From: Candidatus Firestoneibacteriota bacterium
GTDB taxonomy: Bacteria > Oederibacteriota > D2-FULL-39-29
Reading direction: 5' to 3'
Assembly: GCA_903928075.1 (NCBI GenBank)
Contig: CAIYPD010000096.1
Location: 1 to 64,000 of the forward strand
Length of the DNA: 64,000 nucleotides
Positions 5,661 to 61,535 of this stretch are shown one piece after another; the stretch's first letter is position 1; every line of letters starts with the position of its first letter. A program made the position numbers and the translations under genes. The notes beneath the pieces are model-generated. The model was not told where the DNA came from, did not search any database, and saw only the letters and a program-made list of their open reading frames with translations.

Positions 5661-5910
5661 CTTTAAAGTGCGTCTAAAGGTCCGTAAGGTCCATAAAGTC
5701 TATAAGGTCTAAAATCGTTGTAAGATATTTGTTAAGTTCATCCGTGTATCTGTGTCATCTGTTTTTATCCATGCCCGCCAGTCTTTTTGGAGGGTGTGTA
5801 TCTGCCTTCAAAAATGTAAATATTATGATATTTGAGCATCCGCCTGGGCGGAAGCTGCGCTTTTAGCAGCATAAAGTCTAAAATCGTTGATGGATACTTA
5901 TTTAAGTGCA
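5661..5910 (+). repeat. Composite intergenic repeat, copy 1
   Basis: GGTCCGTAAGGTCCATAAAGTCTATAAGGTCTAAAATCGTTG...ATCTGTGTCATCTG...TCTTTTTGGAGGGTGTGTATCTGCCTTCAAAAATGTAAATATTATGATATTTGAGCATCCGCCTGGGCGGAAGCTGCGCTTTTAGCAGCATAAAGTCTAAAATCGTTG. Confidence 0.9.
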
Positions 5911-6014
5911 ATGCTCTTATCCGGCGAAGCCGTCCGCCTCAGGAGGACAAACATCATCTTTTATCTCTTGCCGACCTTCTGACCTTCTGACCTTCCAAAC
6001 CTCATCTTTTATCC

Positions 6015-20357: not shown

Positions 20358-20370
20358 TTGAAAATAAATT

Positions 20371-20570
20371 AGAGTTTGTAAAGTTTGTAAGGTTTGTAAG
20401 GTCAGTAAAGTCTAAAATCGTTGTGAGATATTTATTTCCGTAGGTATATCTGTGTCATCTGTTTTCATCCCTGCCCGCCGATCTTTTTGGAGTGTGTGTA
20501 TCTGCCTTCAAAAATGTAAATATTATGATATTTGGACATCCGCCTGGGCGGAAGCTGCGCTTTTAGCAGC
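20371..20570 (+). repeat. Composite intergenic repeat, copy 2
   Basis: GTAAAGTTTGTAAGG... GTCTAAAATCGTTG ... ATATCTGTGTCATCTG ... TCTTTTTGGAGTGTGTGTATCTGCCTTCAAAAATGTAAATATTATGATATTTGGACATCCGCCTGGGCGGAAGCTGCGCTTTTAGCAGC; near identical to 5661-5870. Confidence 0.9.
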
Positions 20571-30437: not shown

Positions 30438-30574
30438 AATACTCCTTTTTGAAATGGATTACAGTAAAAAGAGAACAAGGTGCAAGCTCAAAGCTTAGAA
30501 CTCACATAAATATCCCTCAACGGTTTTTGACCTTAAAAACCTTAGAAACTTTACAAACCTTATAAACTGGTAAA

Positions 30575-30816
30575 CAATATCCCTCAACGATTTTAGACTT
30601 TATGCTGCTAAAAGCGCAGCTTCCGCCTAGGCGGATGCTCAAATATCATAATATTTACATTTTTGAAGGCATATACACACCCTCCAAAGAGATCGGCGGG
30701 CATGGATACACATACGAAAATAAATATCCTACAACGATTTTAGACCTTATAGACCTTACGGACTTTTACGGACCCTTACAGACCGTTACGGACCTTTACA
30801 GACCTTACGGACCTTT
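30575..30816 (-). repeat. Composite intergenic repeat, copy 3 (inverted relative to copies 1 and 2), plus 10-bp-period tandem block
   Basis: CAACGATTTTAGACTTTATGCTGCTAAAAGCGCAGCTTCCGCCTAGGCGGATGCTCAAATATCATAATATTTACATTTTTGAAGGCATATACACACCCTCCAAAGAGATCGGCGGGCATGG...AAATATCCTACAACGATTTTAGACC then (RGACCTTTAC)n. Confidence 0.9.
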
Positions 30817-32172: not shown

Positions 32173-32277
32173 TTACTTTTCTCCTTTTTACAAGATTCCG
32201 CAGAGTACAAGACAACAAAGAGCAGGGACAATGCACAAGGTACACGGGACAAGGATTGCACTTGCATAAATATCCCT

Positions 32278-32455
32278 CAACGATTTTAGGCTGCTAAAAG
32301 CGCAGCTGATGGCACGGATAAAAACAGATGGCACAGATACACGGATTAACCTAATAAATATCCTACAACGATTTTAGACCTTACAAACCTTATAAACCTT
32401 ACAAACTTTATAGACTATTATCGACCTTTACGGACTTTTACGGACCTTTATGGAC
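32278..32455 (-). repeat. Composite intergenic repeat (short version, CACAGAT variant)
   Basis: CGATTTTAGGCTGCTAAAAGCGCAGCTGATGGCACGGATAAAAACAGATGGCACAGATACACGGATTAACCTAATAAATATCCTACAACGATTTTAGACCTTACAAACC...; same order as 61262-61360. Confidence 0.88.
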
Positions 32456-32478: not shown

Positions 32479-33585
32479 CTACCTGTATTTTTCCGCTATC
32501 TTTATCAGTTCGTTGCCTTCCTCAAGAGTTTCAACCGCCGTAGAAATCCAGAGACCCTCCCGCGGAAGAGTTTTTAAGGCCTCTTCTACTTCTCCGGAGG
32601 GTATTGAAGCATACACTCCCTTCCCCGCTTCAAGTATCTGCTTGTAAACAGCCCGCCAGTACAAGCCCTCGGGTCTACCTGCGCCGGGCACCCACTGTAT
32701 GGCATCTATTTTCTTGAATTTAAGCAGGCGCGGCAAGTGATGAAGAGCGCCGGGGCCGTCCAGATGGTAGATAGAGTTATCAAGAAAGCCGGTTAAATCT
32801 TCAAGTTCCGGGGCTACAAACTCCTCAAACATATCCACGGAAATCATACAGGAAAAATCGCACTGCACCGGGAAATATTTTCCCGGAGACCAGACCGGCA
32901 GCCAGGCGGTAGACCCGCGGTACTTTGTACCCAGCAGGGTATAACTGGCTTCATACATTTTCTTGAAAGTAAGAAGCAGCCGGTCCCGGCAATTTTTTAT
33001 TAATTCCGGCCTTTCTAAAAGTTCTATACAGGTTTTTTCCGCTCCGAGTATCATACTCAGCGCATCCATAGGCTGAATGAATATCGGGAGGCCCTGCATG
33101 GAAACCTCAAGTAAGGCTTTCTCAACTTGAAGTAAATTCTGCCATAAAATGTTACCGGCATCAAAGTCCAGAGTCAGTTTTTCAAGCGCCTCCGGGGTAT
33201 GTTTAAACCAGACGGTCTCATAATCCATAACCGGCTTTTGCCCCATAAAAACACCCGGAAAAGCATAACCCAGCATAAAAGAATACTGCGGGAGAGTCTC
33301 GGCTATAAAGGAGGAACCGGCAAATCTGTTTTTTAAGCCGGCCGTTAAAAATGTAGAGTTACAATACAGCGTCTCCGGGTCCTTCGCTTTGGGATAGGCA
33401 ACCGCTCCCGGTTTGTTTATATGAATAGTCATAGGCACGCGCTTAATGTTTTTTTTCACCCACCAGGCACGCATCCTTGCTTCTGTCTCATCCCAGTTAT
33501 CTTTGTACGGAACGATCATGCTTACCTCAACGATTTTAGACCTTATGCTGCTAAAAGCGCAGCTTCCGCCCGGGCGGATGCTCAA
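32479..33585 (-). CDS. Uroporphyrinogen decarboxylase-like protein, second divergent copy
   Basis: SVDMFEEFVAPELEDLTGFLDNSIYHLDGPGALHHLPRLLKFKKIDAIQWVPGAG typical of UroD/MtaA-fold proteins. Confidence 0.82.
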   Translation of the reverse strand: MSIRPGGSCAFSSIRSKIVEVSMIVPYKDNWDETEARMRAWWVKKNIKRVPMTIHINKPGAVAYPKAKDPETLYCNSTFLTAGLKNRFAGSSFIAETLPQYSFMLGYAFPGVFMGQKPVMDYETVWFKHTPEALEKLTLDFDAGNILWQNLLQVEKALLEVSMQGLPIFIQPMDALSMILGAEKTCIELLERPELIKNCRDRLLLTFKKMYEASYTLLGTKYRGSTAWLPVWSPGKYFPVQCDFSCMISVDMFEEFVAPELEDLTGFLDNSIYHLDGPGALHHLPRLLKFKKIDAIQWVPGAGRPEGLYWRAVYKQILEAGKGVYASIPSGEVEEALKTLPREGLWISTAVETLEEGNELIKIAEKYR

Positions 33586-33840
33586 ATATCATAATATTTA
33601 CATTTTTGAAGGCAGATACACACCCTCCCCTCCAAACAGACTGGCGGGCACAGCGCCAGTCTGTTTGGAGGGGGCATGGATAAAAACCAGATGACACAGA
33701 TAGACGAATGAAAATAATAAATATCCTACAACGATTTTAGACTTTATCTCGCTATGTCAACGGTAGTTGACATCTATATATCCTTCCTCTCGAGAAAAGC
33801 TTTGCTTATGGACCTTACGGACCTTTACAGACCTTATAGA
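33525..33840 (-). repeat. Composite intergenic repeat, copy 4, with internal 20-bp-stem perfect inverted duplication
   Basis: Same order of modules as copy 3; internal CCCCTCCAAACAGACTGGCG GGCACAG CGCCAGTCTGTTTGGAGGGG at 33627-33673. Confidence 0.92.
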
Positions 33841-52969: not shown

Positions 52970-54265
52970 ATGTTCTGGCAGAAAAATATAGAAACTTTAC
53001 CAAGAGAACAACTCGAAAAATTACAACTGCTCCGGCTTAAAGCAACCGTCAAACGGGTCTATGCTAAAGTCCCTTATTATAAAAAGCTTTTTAGAGCAAA
53101 AAAGACAGCACCGAAAGAGATAAAGACGCTGGAAGATATTACCAAACTCCCTTTTACCACCCGGGATGATTTACAAAAAAACTACCCCGACGGCCTGCTT
53201 TCGGTAACGAAAGATAAACTGGTACGGCTGCACACCTCTTCGGGAACCACCGGCAAACCCAAGGCGGTTTTCTTTACGGAGAAAGATATAGCAACAGCTG
53301 CGAACAATATGGCAAGATGCCTGACCATGACCGGGGTAACAAAAAGCGATGTTCTGCAAAATATGATGAGTTACGGTTTGTTCACCGGCGGGCTGATGAT
53401 GCACTACGGCGCGGAAAAAATAGGCGCCCTGGTTATCCCGGCTGCTATCGGCAACACCGACAGGCAGCTCCTCCTTATGCAGGATTTCGGAACGACCTCT
53501 ATCCACCTCACTCCTTCCTACGCCTTATATCTTGCGGCTATCTTCGAGAAGAAGGGCCGGGCTTTTAGAAAAAAACTAAAACTTAAAAGAGCCTATATGG
53601 GCGCGGAACCCTACACGGAAGAGACCAAGAACAAGATAGAGAGCATTTTAAAATTGAAGGTGTATAACTCCTACGGACTTACGGAGATGAACGGCCCGGG
53701 GGTCGCCTTTGAATGCGGTTTTCAAGCCGGGATGCATCTCTGGGAAGATTCTTATTTAATGGAAATCGTAGATCCCAAGACCGACAGGCCTTTACCCGAC
53801 GGGCAGACCGGAGAACTTATTCTTACGACACTCACCCGCGAAGGTATGCCGATAATACGCTACCGCACCCGGGATTTGACCGCCATAATTCCTGAAAAAT
53901 GCAAGTGCGGGCGCACGCACAGGAGAATAATGCGGATTAAGGGCCGGGCCGACGATATGTTCATACTGCGAGGCGTAAATATCTACCCGCAGCAGATAGA
54001 ACGCGTCCTTATGAGTGTCGCGCATGTAGAAAAAAATTACCAGATCTACCTGGAAGACAACGATAAGATGACGGTTAAAGTCGAAATAACCAAGAAGCTC
54101 TTTGACGGCAATCTGGAACACTTAAAGAAACTTCAATTTGACCTTACGGAAAAACTCCGGGCCGAAATTATGGTCCGGCCGAGTGTCGAACTGGTGGAAC
54201 CGGGAACCCTCCCCGTTTCGGAAGGAAAAGCGAAAAGGGTGTTTGATAATCGAAAAATCTACTGA
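52970..54265 (+). CDS. paaK: Phenylacetate-CoA ligase family protein
   Basis: [71 protein letters not shown]. Confidence 0.95.
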   Translation: MFWQKNIETLPREQLEKLQLLRLKATVKRVYAKVPYYKKLFRAKKTAPKEIKTLEDITKLPFTTRDDLQKNYPDGLLSVTKDKLVRLHTSSGTTGKPKAVFFTEKDIATAANNMARCLTMTGVTKSDVLQNMMSYGLFTGGLMMHYGAEKIGALVIPAAIGNTDRQLLLMQDFGTTSIHLTPSYALYLAAIFEKKGRAFRKKLKLKRAYMGAEPYTEETKNKIESILKLKVYNSYGLTEMNGPGVAFECGFQAGMHLWEDSYLMEIVDPKTDRPLPDGQTGELILTTLTREGMPIIRYRTRDLTAIIPEKCKCGRTHRRIMRIKGRADDMFILRGVNIYPQQIERVLMSVAHVEKNYQIYLEDNDKMTVKVEITKKLFDGNLEHLKKLQFDLTEKLRAEIMVRPSVELVEPGTLPVSEGKAKRVFDNRKIY

Positions 54266-54524
54266 TTTTTCTCAAGTTAGTAAGGTTTTTAACGTTTGTA
54301 AAGTTTGTAAAGTTAAAAACCATTGAAAAATATTATTAAGGGTTTATTTTGTCTTTAGAGTTGGCATTCAAATTTGATACCACCTTTAAAAAAGACCTTA
54401 TAAACCTTAAAAGTTTTACAAACCTTATTAACTTTTGCTTTGGAATTATATAATGTTACCTTTAAAAAAAACTTTATAAACGTTAAAAACTTTACAAACT
54501 TTATGAACTTGTTCCGGAGGAACC

Positions 54525-54947: not shown

Positions 54948-56261
54948 ATGACTGACAAATTAATCTGGAATCCGAAAGCGGAGTGCATGCTCCTGAAAGA
55001 AAGAGAACGGCTGCAACTGGACCGCCTGCAGCATATCGTAAAATACGCCTACGAAAATATTGCCTATTACAAAAAATCATTTGACGCCGCCGGGGTCAAG
55101 CCTTCTGATATAAAAAGCCTGAAAGACATCGTAAAGCTGCCTTTTACCTCCAAAGAAGATTTGCGGAGCGCCTATCCTTTCGGTATGTTCGCAGTCCCGC
55201 ATGAAGAGATTCTTGAAATACACACCTCTTCGGGCACGACCGGCAGGCCTGTGGTGGTCGGCTATACAGCCGGCGACCTGGAACTCTGGGGCGAAGTAAT
55301 GGCCCGGGCTCTTTCTATGGCAGGCACCACCAAAGCCGACTGGGTCCAGAACGCCTACGGCTATGGTTTATTCACCGGCGGGCTGGGCGTGCATTACGGC
55401 GCAAGAAAAATAGGCGCGAATATTGTCCCTATTTCCGCAGGCAACACCAAGCGGCAGTTAGAAATAATTAAAGACTTCGGAACCACCATTCTTACCTGCA
55501 CTCCTTCCTATACTCTCTATCTGGCTGAAGTTGCCGGAGAAGAAGGTATTGACCTGAAAAAATGCAAATTGAGAGCCGGGGTCTTCGGCGCGGAGATGTG
55601 GACCGAAAAGATGCGGGAAGAAATAGAAAAGCGCCTGCATCTAAGCGCTCTTAATATCTACGGCCTGACCGAGATTATCGGGCCGGGAGTTTCCCAGGAA
55701 TGTATGGAGAAGGCAGGCCTGCACTTGCAGGAGGATCATTTCTTCCCTGAAGTTATTTCCCCGGATTCTCTGGTTCCCGTAGAAGAAGCACACAAGGGTG
55801 AACTTGTTCTCACAACCCTGACCCGCGAAGGGACCCCTATGATACGCTTCCGGACCAAAGATATAACTGCGCTCAATCACGGAATCTGTAAATGCGGCAG
55901 GACTACGGTGAAGATGGACAGAATAACCGGCAGGTCGGATGATATGATGAAGATTCGCGGCGTTATCGTCTTCCCCTCCCAGATAGAAAAGGCCCTGCTG
56001 GAAATACCGGGTATTGAACCGCATTACAAGATAATAATCACCAGGCCGCACCAACTGGATGAACTGGAAGTCCAGGTGGAAACCTCAAAAAAAATGTTCT
56101 CGGACGAAATCAGACATATAGAAGAAATGAAAAACAACATTGAATCCCATGTCGAACGAGCTATCGGTATAAGGATAAAAGTCGCACTGGTGGAACCGAA
56201 ATCGATACAGCGGAGCGAGGGCAAAGCTCGACGGGTATTTGATATGAGGAATATGAAATAG
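54948..56261 (+). CDS. paaK: Phenylacetate-CoA ligase family protein, second copy
   Basis: [71 protein letters not shown]. Confidence 0.95.
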
Positions 56262-56263
56262 CC

Positions 56264-56883
56264 CGTCTGATGACACAGATGAAAGTGAGATGGCACAGAT
56301 AAAAACACAGATAAGAGCACAGGTTAAGAACGCGGATAAATAATAGGATAAGATACAAAAAGCAAAATAAAGCAGATAATTTTGATGATGGGGTATCATC
56401 TTTGTCATTGGATAGGGAGAGTATATATGGTTATTGAAATGGATAATATACTTACAGCAAGGATTATCGGGTATTGTTTCAAATTGCACACTGAAATAGG
56501 TCCGGGGCATGTCGAAAAGGTTTATCATAATGGGCTGATTACAATTTTAAAAAAAGAAAAAGTTGTCTTTGAATCAGAGAAGCGGTACAAGTTGTTTTAT
56601 CAGAATGAGGTAATTGGCAGTTTCAAAGCAGATTTAGTTATTGAGAACAAATTGATAGTTGAATTAAAGTCTTTGGAACGAGTTATACCGGAGGTTTTCT
56701 ACCGCCAGACAGTCTCGTATCTTAGATCAGCAAAAATACCGCTTGGTCTTATAGTAAACTTTGGCACAAACAGATGCCAAATAAAAAGAATCGTTGTGTA
56801 ATCTAATATTTAACTGTAATATTATATAAACAGCATAGCGCTCTATCTGTGCCATCTCACTTTCATCCGTGTCATCAGTTTTA
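56264..56883. repeat. Inverted CACAGAT-type repeats flanking the GxxExxY gene
   Basis: Left: CTGATGACACAGATGAAAGTGAGATGGCACAGATAAA (56266-56302). Right: ATCTGTGCCATCTCACTTTCATCCGTGTCATCAG (about 56846-56879), its inverted complement. Confidence 0.88.
56382..56801 (+). CDS. GxxExxY protein (PDDEXK-like)
   Basis: DNILTARIIGYCFKLHTEIGPGHVEKVYHNGLI...YQNEVIGSFKADLVIENKLIVELKSLE: GPGHVEKVY corresponds to the GxxExxY motif. Confidence 0.92.
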   Translation: MMMGYHLCHWIGRVYMVIEMDNILTARIIGYCFKLHTEIGPGHVEKVYHNGLITILKKEKVVFESEKRYKLFYQNEVIGSFKADLVIENKLIVELKSLERVIPEVFYRQTVSYLRSAKIPLGLIVNFGTNRCQIKRIVV

Positions 56884-56896
56884 CTGGAGGTAAAAC

Positions 56897-57328
56897 ATGC
56901 ATGTTAAGCAGGTTTCTATTTTTCTGGAAAACAAGAAAGGCCGGCTGCTGGATGCTTTGAAGGCACTGGCAAAGGCGAAGATAAATATAAGAGCGCTTTC
57001 TGTTGCAGATACGGCGGATTACGGGATTCTGAGGATGATAGTATCCGATGTTCCCAGAGCTAAGGCAGCTCTAGAATCCGCAGGATTCACGGTAAAAGAA
57101 ACTGAAGTAATTGCCATAGCCGTAAGCGACCAGCCGGGCGGCCTGGCCAAGATCCTCGAAGTGTTGAATAATGCGGGCTTGAATGTGGAATATGTATACG
57201 CCTTTGCGGAAAAACATGAAAATGATGCGATAGTGGTTCTTAGGACAGAAAATATCGAACTCGGAATAAAGACCCTGACAAACGCCAAAGTAAAGATACT
57301 GGAGCCGAAGAAAGTATATTCAATATAA
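56897..57328 (+). CDS. ACT-domain protein (tandem ACT), second copy
   Basis: KQVSIFLENKKGRLLDALKALAKAKINIRALSVADTADYGILRMIVSD ... AVSDQPGGLAKILEVLNNAGLNVEYVYAF. Confidence 0.93.
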   Translation: MHVKQVSIFLENKKGRLLDALKALAKAKINIRALSVADTADYGILRMIVSDVPRAKAALESAGFTVKETEVIAIAVSDQPGGLAKILEVLNNAGLNVEYVYAFAEKHENDAIVVLRTENIELGIKTLTNAKVKILEPKKVYSI

Positions 57329-57556
57329 GTCCATAAAGTTTATAAAGTTTGTAAGGTTTGTAAAGTCTAGAATCTTTGAAGTATATTAATTGTAAAGCGT
57401 AATTTAAAAATTTTGCAATTACTTAATATATTTGTCTCCACTAAAAAAGACCTTATGAACCTTATTAAATTTACAAACATTACCAACCTTATAGACTTCT
57501 TTTTTCAAAAGACTTTACAAACTTTACTAACGTTAAAAACTTTATGAACTCTTTCG

Positions 57557-59189: not shown

Positions 59190-59390
59190 TTTTTGGCTGA
59201 TGACACAGATGGGTAACGAGATATCACAGATAGAACAAGAACTGATAGATTATCTAAACCGCGCCAAATATTTGGCTGGTTATTTTTATTTATCTGCGTC
59301 ATCCAATCTGTGCTCATCTCGCTTTCATCTGTGCCATCTCACTTCCCATCTGTGCCATCAGCCCAAAATATGAATTTTATCAATTTTTGG
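59190..59390. repeat. Inverted CACAGAT-repeat element without a gene
   Basis: TTTTGGCTGATGACACAGATGGG on the left is the inverted counterpart of CCCATCTGTGCCATCAGCCCAAAAT on the right. Confidence 0.82.
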
Positions 59391-61261: not shown

Positions 61262-61535
61262 AGCTTATGCTGCTAAAAACGCAGCTGATGACACAGATAA
61301 AAACAGATGGCACAGATACACGAATTAATCTAATAAATATCCTTCTATGATTTTAGACCTTATGGACTTTATGGACCTTTACAGACCTTTACGGACATTT
61401 ACGGACCTTTACAGACCATTAACACTATCCCTCAACGATTTTAGACCTTATAGACCTTATGGACCTTTAGACCTTTATGGACCTTTACAGACCTTTACAG
61501 ACCTTTATGGACTTTTAGACGCACTTTAAAGGTCT
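61262..61535 (-). repeat. Composite intergenic repeat (short version) with 10-bp-period tandem block
   Basis: ATGCTGCTAAAAACGCAGCTGATGACACAGATAAAAACAGATGGCACAGATACACGAATTAATCTAATAAATATCC...GATTTTAGACC then many GGACCTTTAC/AGACCTTTAC units, second CAACGATTTTAGAC box at 61433. Confidence 0.88.

Follow-up and report, generated by a model that had tools for sequence, protein, structure and literature searches.

GxxExxY genes enclosed by inverted word arrays: a candidate class of small mobile DNA

The GxxExxY gene of the window (the whole stretch of 64,000 nucleotides analysed here) lies in a small cassette bounded by inverted arrays of a short word, and the same layout was found around most of the GxxExxY loci surveyed in many phyla and in archaea. 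Compared at the sequence level, these loci point to a widespread, apparently undescribed class of small mobile DNA. The architecture, its generality, its fixed orientation and the occurrence of occupied, decayed and empty sites were observed, as were gene-less copies scattered in the genome, words that vary with the protein and intact catalytic residues. The explanation that we favour, with a probability of about 0.6, is a minimal mobile element whose nuclease would act on its own word-array ends at the DNA level; recognition of DNA by the protein, catalysis of the movement and the chemistry of insertion are the three parts of it that we infer as most likely.

The cassette of the window

The features of the locus are listed in Table 1. 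The initial annotation had described a gene enclosed by inverted CACAGAT repeats, and this was confirmed: the two arms, of 35 nt each, are 97% complementary and are separated by 542 nt. The left end of the element is located 5 nt past the stop codon of paaK2, and the left arm carries the word GATGNCACAGAT twice with a spacing of about 20 nt, weaker copies extending to about position 56338. The gene had been annotated as PDDEXK-like, with 139 residues. The assignment stood, on a TIGR04256/PF13366 match and a nuclease-type predicted fold, whereas the length is probably too great: the 139-residue frame opens with TTG and matches the family only from residue 24, and the ATG start at 56430, giving 123 residues, is therefore likelier. 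In the same way, the element does separate paaK2 from its ACT partner as proposed, whereas the other paaK-ACT pair, described as close together, has a gap of 259 nt that is occupied by an inverted word-repeat pair of its own.

Table 1. Positions of the cassette, its host genes and related repeats in the window.
Feature	Position	Strand	Remarks
Whole element (GxxExxY gene and both inverted word arms)	56267..56878	+	612 nt
Left arm	56267..56301	+	CTGATGACACAGATGAAAGTGAGATGGCACAGATA; 35 nt
Right arm, inverted copy of the left arm	56844..56878	-	34/35 positions complementary
GxxExxY gene	56430..56801	+	123 aa; PD-(D/E)XK nuclease of Cas4/lambda-exonuclease type, by profile and predicted fold
paaK2-like AMP-binding protein, upstream host gene	54948..56261	+	
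ACT2, ACT-domain pair protein, downstream host gene	56897..57328	+	
paaK1	52970-54265		
ACT1	54525-54938		
Gene-less inverted pair of another word class, between paaK1 and ACT1	54274..54501		GTTTGTAAAG; arms 54274-54306 / 54469-54501
Second gene-less inverted pair	57328..57550		GTTTATAAAG class
Gene-less inverted pair of the element's own word, MITE-like copy	59190..59366		outer ends GGCTGATG / CATCAGCC
Solo CACAGAT-word array inside a composite intergenic repeat	61285..61317	-	
Further solo CACAGAT-word arrays	5740-5761, 20447-20461, 32313-32346, 33688-33702		
Composite intergenic repeats	5677-5946, 20368-20570, 30491-30766, 32235-32424, 33525-33747, 61285-61527		several copies, both orientations

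Family, predicted structure and selection

In a profile search the protein matched TIGR04256 (3.4e-32) and PF13366 (2e-29), with 111.2 bits against a cut-off of 35 and 102.8 bits against a cut-off of 22, which places it in the GxxExxY family. These were the only families recovered by profile search of the element, and no known transposase was found among them. G26, E29, Y32, D68, E78, K80, Q93, Y97 and F111 are invariant across 37 sequences; E29, D68, E78-x-K80 and Q93-xxx-Y97 make up the RecB/Cas4/lambda-exonuclease catalytic pattern (E, D, ExK, QxxxY). The structure was predicted with a pLDDT of 95.5, and Foldseek with this model gave Cas4 SSO0001 as the best PDB match (E 9e-5), followed by other Cas4 proteins, MGME1 and lambda exonuclease; a sequence search of the PDB with the protein returned no significant match. 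According to the model, the protein is a predicted compact PD-(D/E)XK nuclease of Cas4/lambda-exonuclease type. The alignment of the 37 sequences contains no cysteine that is invariant or nearly so, which argues against an Fe-S cluster. Between copies pN is far below pS, with synonymous differences near saturation even for copies at different sites, and this scarcity of non-synonymous differences indicates that the protein is maintained by purifying selection.

Inverted word arrays around GxxExxY loci

The 300-nt upstream and downstream flanks of GxxExxY genes were compared, an inverted match being counted at a score of at least 16. Such a match was detected in 79% of 28 loci from relatives of the window's genome, against 4.8% when flanks of different loci were paired; for the 76 named loci, drawn from many phyla and from archaea, the share was 71%, against 13.6% for mismatched pairs, a rate inflated because many named loci share the word CACAGAG. 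The ParE toxin family, used as control in the genomes of the relatives' survey, gave 0% of 28, and random windows in the contigs of the named loci gave 12 of 924 (1.3%). The inverted repeats that the initial annotation had suggested around GxxExxY genes were thus recovered well beyond the window. Direct matches were rarer than inverted ones (14% for the relatives and 21% for the named loci), and no inverted pair was detectable in about 29% of the named loci, nor in one Fusobacteria plasmid copy.

The arms consist of arrays such as ACCACAGAGACACAGAGACACAGAG, ACCGCAAAGACGCAAAGG, CCGCCGATAAACGCCGAT and GCCACAGATGAATGGGATGAAC. CACAGAT had been put forward as the general repeat; this exact word proved to be local to one lineage, the word differing from element to element and usually following a common grammar, roughly C[AG]CN[AG]A[GT] every 7-10 nt. 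In 66 loci the word of the 5' arm reads along the gene strand, and in 2 it reads along the opposite one. Elements with more similar proteins tend to have more similar words (Mantel r 0.46, p 0.0005), a correlation that partly reflects shared ancestry and that amounts to only r 0.17 (p 0.005) among the named phyla alone. The GxxExxY elements measure about 0.42-0.78 kb, with a median of 484 nt (499 nt for the four-helix elements described below), and in co-directional cases the left end and the upstream stop codon are typically no more than about 15 nt apart. GxxExxY matches were absent from phages and present in 8 of 72,556 plasmids, so that spread mainly by phage or plasmid is unsupported.

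Two loci call for separate mention. The perfect repeat of 106 nt at L042, close to the end of its contig, could have arisen in assembly. At L295 (Sphingomonas parapaucimobilis) the 5' word array runs straight into the GxxExxY coding region, which suggests that this purine-rich array may double as a ribosome-binding region.

Presence and absence of the cassette at orthologous sites

At the paaK2/ACT2 site, genomes G000 and G002 possess both the gene and the arms. In the sister genome G001 the arms persist around a frameshifted gene (G001:C36:9050-9420; L092 3554-3921). Neither gene nor arms were found in G003, where the gap is 40 nt, or in G004, where another kind of word array stands instead. 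The proposal that gene and repeats behave as one insertion is in agreement with this distribution; arms at a gene-free ancestral site, the observation that would have spoken against it, were looked for at paaK2/ACT in G001-G004, and arms occurred there only with an intact or decayed gene.

Similar contrasts were obtained elsewhere. In the next family, the paaK1/ACT1 site of G005 holds a GxxExxY gene with AATCTGCGTAATC arms, as does that of G006 up to the contig end, and the site has no GxxExxY element in G007 and G008. At frr/uppS, an element of a second type, whose words are GATTCCACTGATT, is intact in G001, present as a decayed remnant in G000 (G000:C111:515-649; L262) and missing in G002, G003, G005, G007 and G008. 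The arms in G001 suggest tandem duplication as a route of array growth. A relative of it (77% protein identity) interrupts atpD/atpC in G004, a gene pair that is uninterrupted in G000, G001, G003, G005 and G007. Among the named loci, fabD/fabG is interrupted in S. parapaucimobilis and uninterrupted in S. paeninsulae and Sinorhizobium. In Bacteroides finegoldii an element separates radA from a FAD gene; in Parabacteroides distasonis this pair is uninterrupted. That homologous elements occupy unrelated sites speaks for movement of the cassette as one unit. Target-site duplications were unreadable at five orthologous sites, the host intergenic DNA being too diverged.

It could be argued that the arms are dispersed intergenic repeats of an ordinary kind and that the gene stands between two of them by coincidence or through a shared preference for intergenic DNA, since tens of further sites have the word and lack the gene. 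The pairing is, however, inverted and rarely direct, a locus-specific word is common to both arms, the orientation is fixed, the ParE control is zero and gene and arms are jointly missing at empty sites. Such a coincidence was already contradicted by the flank survey, and we regard it as highly improbable.

Words and gene-less copies in the genome

The CACAGAT repeat extends well beyond the gene. Sites resembling CATCTGTGCCATCT number 11 in the window against 0.18 expected, and the ATCTGTGNCATCTG pattern, with one mismatch allowed, matches 93 times across the genome (reversed control: 1), which has one full GxxExxY gene and one fragment. Five places in the genome carry the word in the inverted (-,+) order of the element within 1 kb and none in the (+,-) order; the gene is missing from 4 of these 5 pairs, which by their sequence look like MITE-type derivatives.

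The composite intergenic repeats of Table 1 are made up of a 10-nt AAGGTCCGTA array, a conserved TCTAAAATCGTTGTAGGATATTTAT core, a solo CATCTGTG array and CTGCGCTTTTAGCAGC.

Array abundance was then compared with the presence of the gene among 59 relatives. At least 3 matches to CACAGAG arrays were counted in 13 of the 21 genomes with GxxExxY and in 2 of the 38 without (Fisher p 4e-6, for genomes that are not phylogenetically independent), the two exceptions having 3 and 66 matches. For the word of the window's lineage, three genomes with the paaK2 element gave 57, 29 and 21 matches, two family members without it 3 and 4, and the outgroups 0.

A nuclease of the QxxxY-type RecB/Cas4 fold and words dispersed in intergenic DNA would also be compatible with a Chi-like or self-marking function, in which the dispersed words guide the enzyme and the arms mark host DNA instead of mobilising it. 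This is the least probable of the explanations considered, given that the words differ between elements of one genome (e.g. G014, G034), form inverted pairs around the gene itself and belong to cassettes that are present or absent as a whole.

Arrays around other genes

Genes for four-helix-bundle proteins (S23, TIGR02436) showed the same inverted-array layout in 63% of 30 loci, with words that differ from those of GxxExxY (GGTTTATAAAG, GGTTGGA, AGGTAAAGGG and GTTACAG). The second word class of the window, GTTTGTAAAG, matches the arms around a four-helix gene (L104) of the same genome. When the named loci were scanned for inverted periodic arms regardless of gene content, mostly GxxExxY genes and several four-helix genes were recovered, the latter recognised by eye from their sequences and not by profile.

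Two side observations concern the contents of such arrays. At L224 (3215-4091) a GIY-YIG-like gene, identified by eye, stands between inverted CCACAGAGG (CACAGAG) arms, which suggests that other genes can occupy such a cassette. The distant genome G052 has 66 CACAGAG-array matches and 19 low-scoring four-helix matches, many in close pairs on opposite strands, and no GxxExxY gene.

As the four-helix proteins are not nucleases and have the same layout, both kinds of cassette could owe their mobility to a common agent that has escaped notice, and this is the main rival to nuclease-driven movement. Host or third-party machinery would then mobilise or copy the arrays, GxxExxY and S23 genes being captured passengers or accessory factors. 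In favour of this are the layout common to two unrelated protein families, the gene-less inverted pairs and solo arrays, which far outnumber the gene-bearing ones, and the unrelated gene of L224. Against it, the abundance of the arrays tracks the presence of GxxExxY, the catalytic residues are kept under purifying selection and the word grammar is particular to each gene family. A classifier of arms by gene family reached 86% in leave-one-out assays against 80% for the majority guess; as this gain is modest, the case for a distinct grammar is carried mainly by the word patterns. We grant the passenger explanation an appreciable, minor share of the probability.

Arms as a possible RNA stem

The arms might instead pair in the transcript and be cut by RNase III, the cassette being tolerated in operons and its mobility being incidental or RNA-mediated. 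RNase III excision of the Coxiella 23S rRNA intervening sequence (IVS) provides a precedent (PMC4990558), the transcript of the window folds with its arms paired (z -9.65) and most elements (a raw count of 51 among 61 assigned) lie behind a gene read in the same direction. A strong fold is, however, expected of any inverted repeat. Moreover, a function of the RNA stem predicts more G-U than A-C mismatches between arms; the counts are 93 to 78 for GxxExxY (p 0.28) and 13 to 36 for the four-helix elements, and this missing excess gives no sign of RNA-stem selection. Selection on the arms as RNA stems is unsupported by the mismatch asymmetry, and we consider an RNA-level element quite unlikely.

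Discussion

In the favoured mechanism of DNA-level movement, the sole gene of the cassette would supply a Cas4/RecB-like PD-(D/E)XK nuclease, and the ends would be inverted arrays of a short degenerate word that is lineage-specific yet within the grammar of the family. The nuclease would recognise these arrays and cut or process the ends of the element, and the cassette, like gene-less copies with the same arms, would insert where a short gap separates a stop codon from the following gene. A broader proposition, to which we give somewhat less than even odds, is a pan-prokaryotic class of elements in which a Cas4-like nuclease of about 120 residues would move its own gene, and derivatives lacking it, by way of inverted word arrays, the short word changing rapidly and co-evolving with the protein; S23 elements, the rRNA IVS among them, would be a parallel branch.

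No description of GxxExxY repeat cassettes was found in the open literature; subscription literature and preprints were outside the search, and the novelty is accordingly provisional. GxxExxY is named in only two open-access articles, and a passage of one of them (PMC8934634) does not deal with repeats. The results offer a candidate role for GxxExxY proteins, which occur in many phyla and have no function assigned in the open literature searched, and they link these proteins to dispersed intergenic repeats of the CACAGAG/CGCAGAG type. They also allow the rRNA intervening sequences, long a puzzle, to be viewed in one framework with GxxExxY. Should the nuclease prove to read a short word that varies from element to element, it may represent a sequence-specific DNA enzyme of very small size.

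Comparison with known systems

Cas4, lambda exonuclease and MGME1 have the fold and the E, D, ExK and QxxxY residues in common with GxxExxY. Unlike Cas4, the GxxExxY protein has only about 120 residues, no invariant cysteines and, in the loci read in detail, neither a CRISPR context nor linkage to cas genes, the neighbours being paa, ATP synthase, fab, radA and uppS genes.

In REP/BIME-RAYT systems, as for GxxExxY, many dispersed short intergenic repeats per genome are tied to one gene with inverted copies on its two sides. RAYT is a Y1/HUH enzyme, whereas GxxExxY is by profile and predicted fold a PD-(D/E)XK protein and no Y1/HUH tyrosine transposase. The GxxExxY words form 7-10-nt arrays, whereas REPs are palindromes of 20-40 nt.

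MITEs and their parent insertion sequences likewise have terminal inverted repeats, empty sites and gene-bearing and gene-less copies with the same ends. The GxxExxY element departs from them in its ends, which are degenerate word arrays differing between elements, and in its only gene, which codes for a small nuclease that is not among the known transposases.

Among known designs, the 23S rRNA IVS with an S23 ORF, found in Coxiella and Leptospira, comes nearest. The GxxExxY element differs from it by coding for a Cas4-like nuclease and not an S23 four-helix bundle, by its location between protein-coding genes (paaK2/ACT) and not in the helices of an rRNA gene, and by arms without sign of RNA-level selection, RNA processing being demonstrated for the IVS only. 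Both have terminal inverted repeats, short words in the ends, one small ORF, a size of about 0.45 kb and a sporadic presence, and the IVS has long been suspected of mobility. The Coxiella IVS has 428 nt, 28-bp terminal inverted repeats and GACAGAT heptamers upstream of the S23 ORF, and transposition has been put forward as its origin (PMC4990558).
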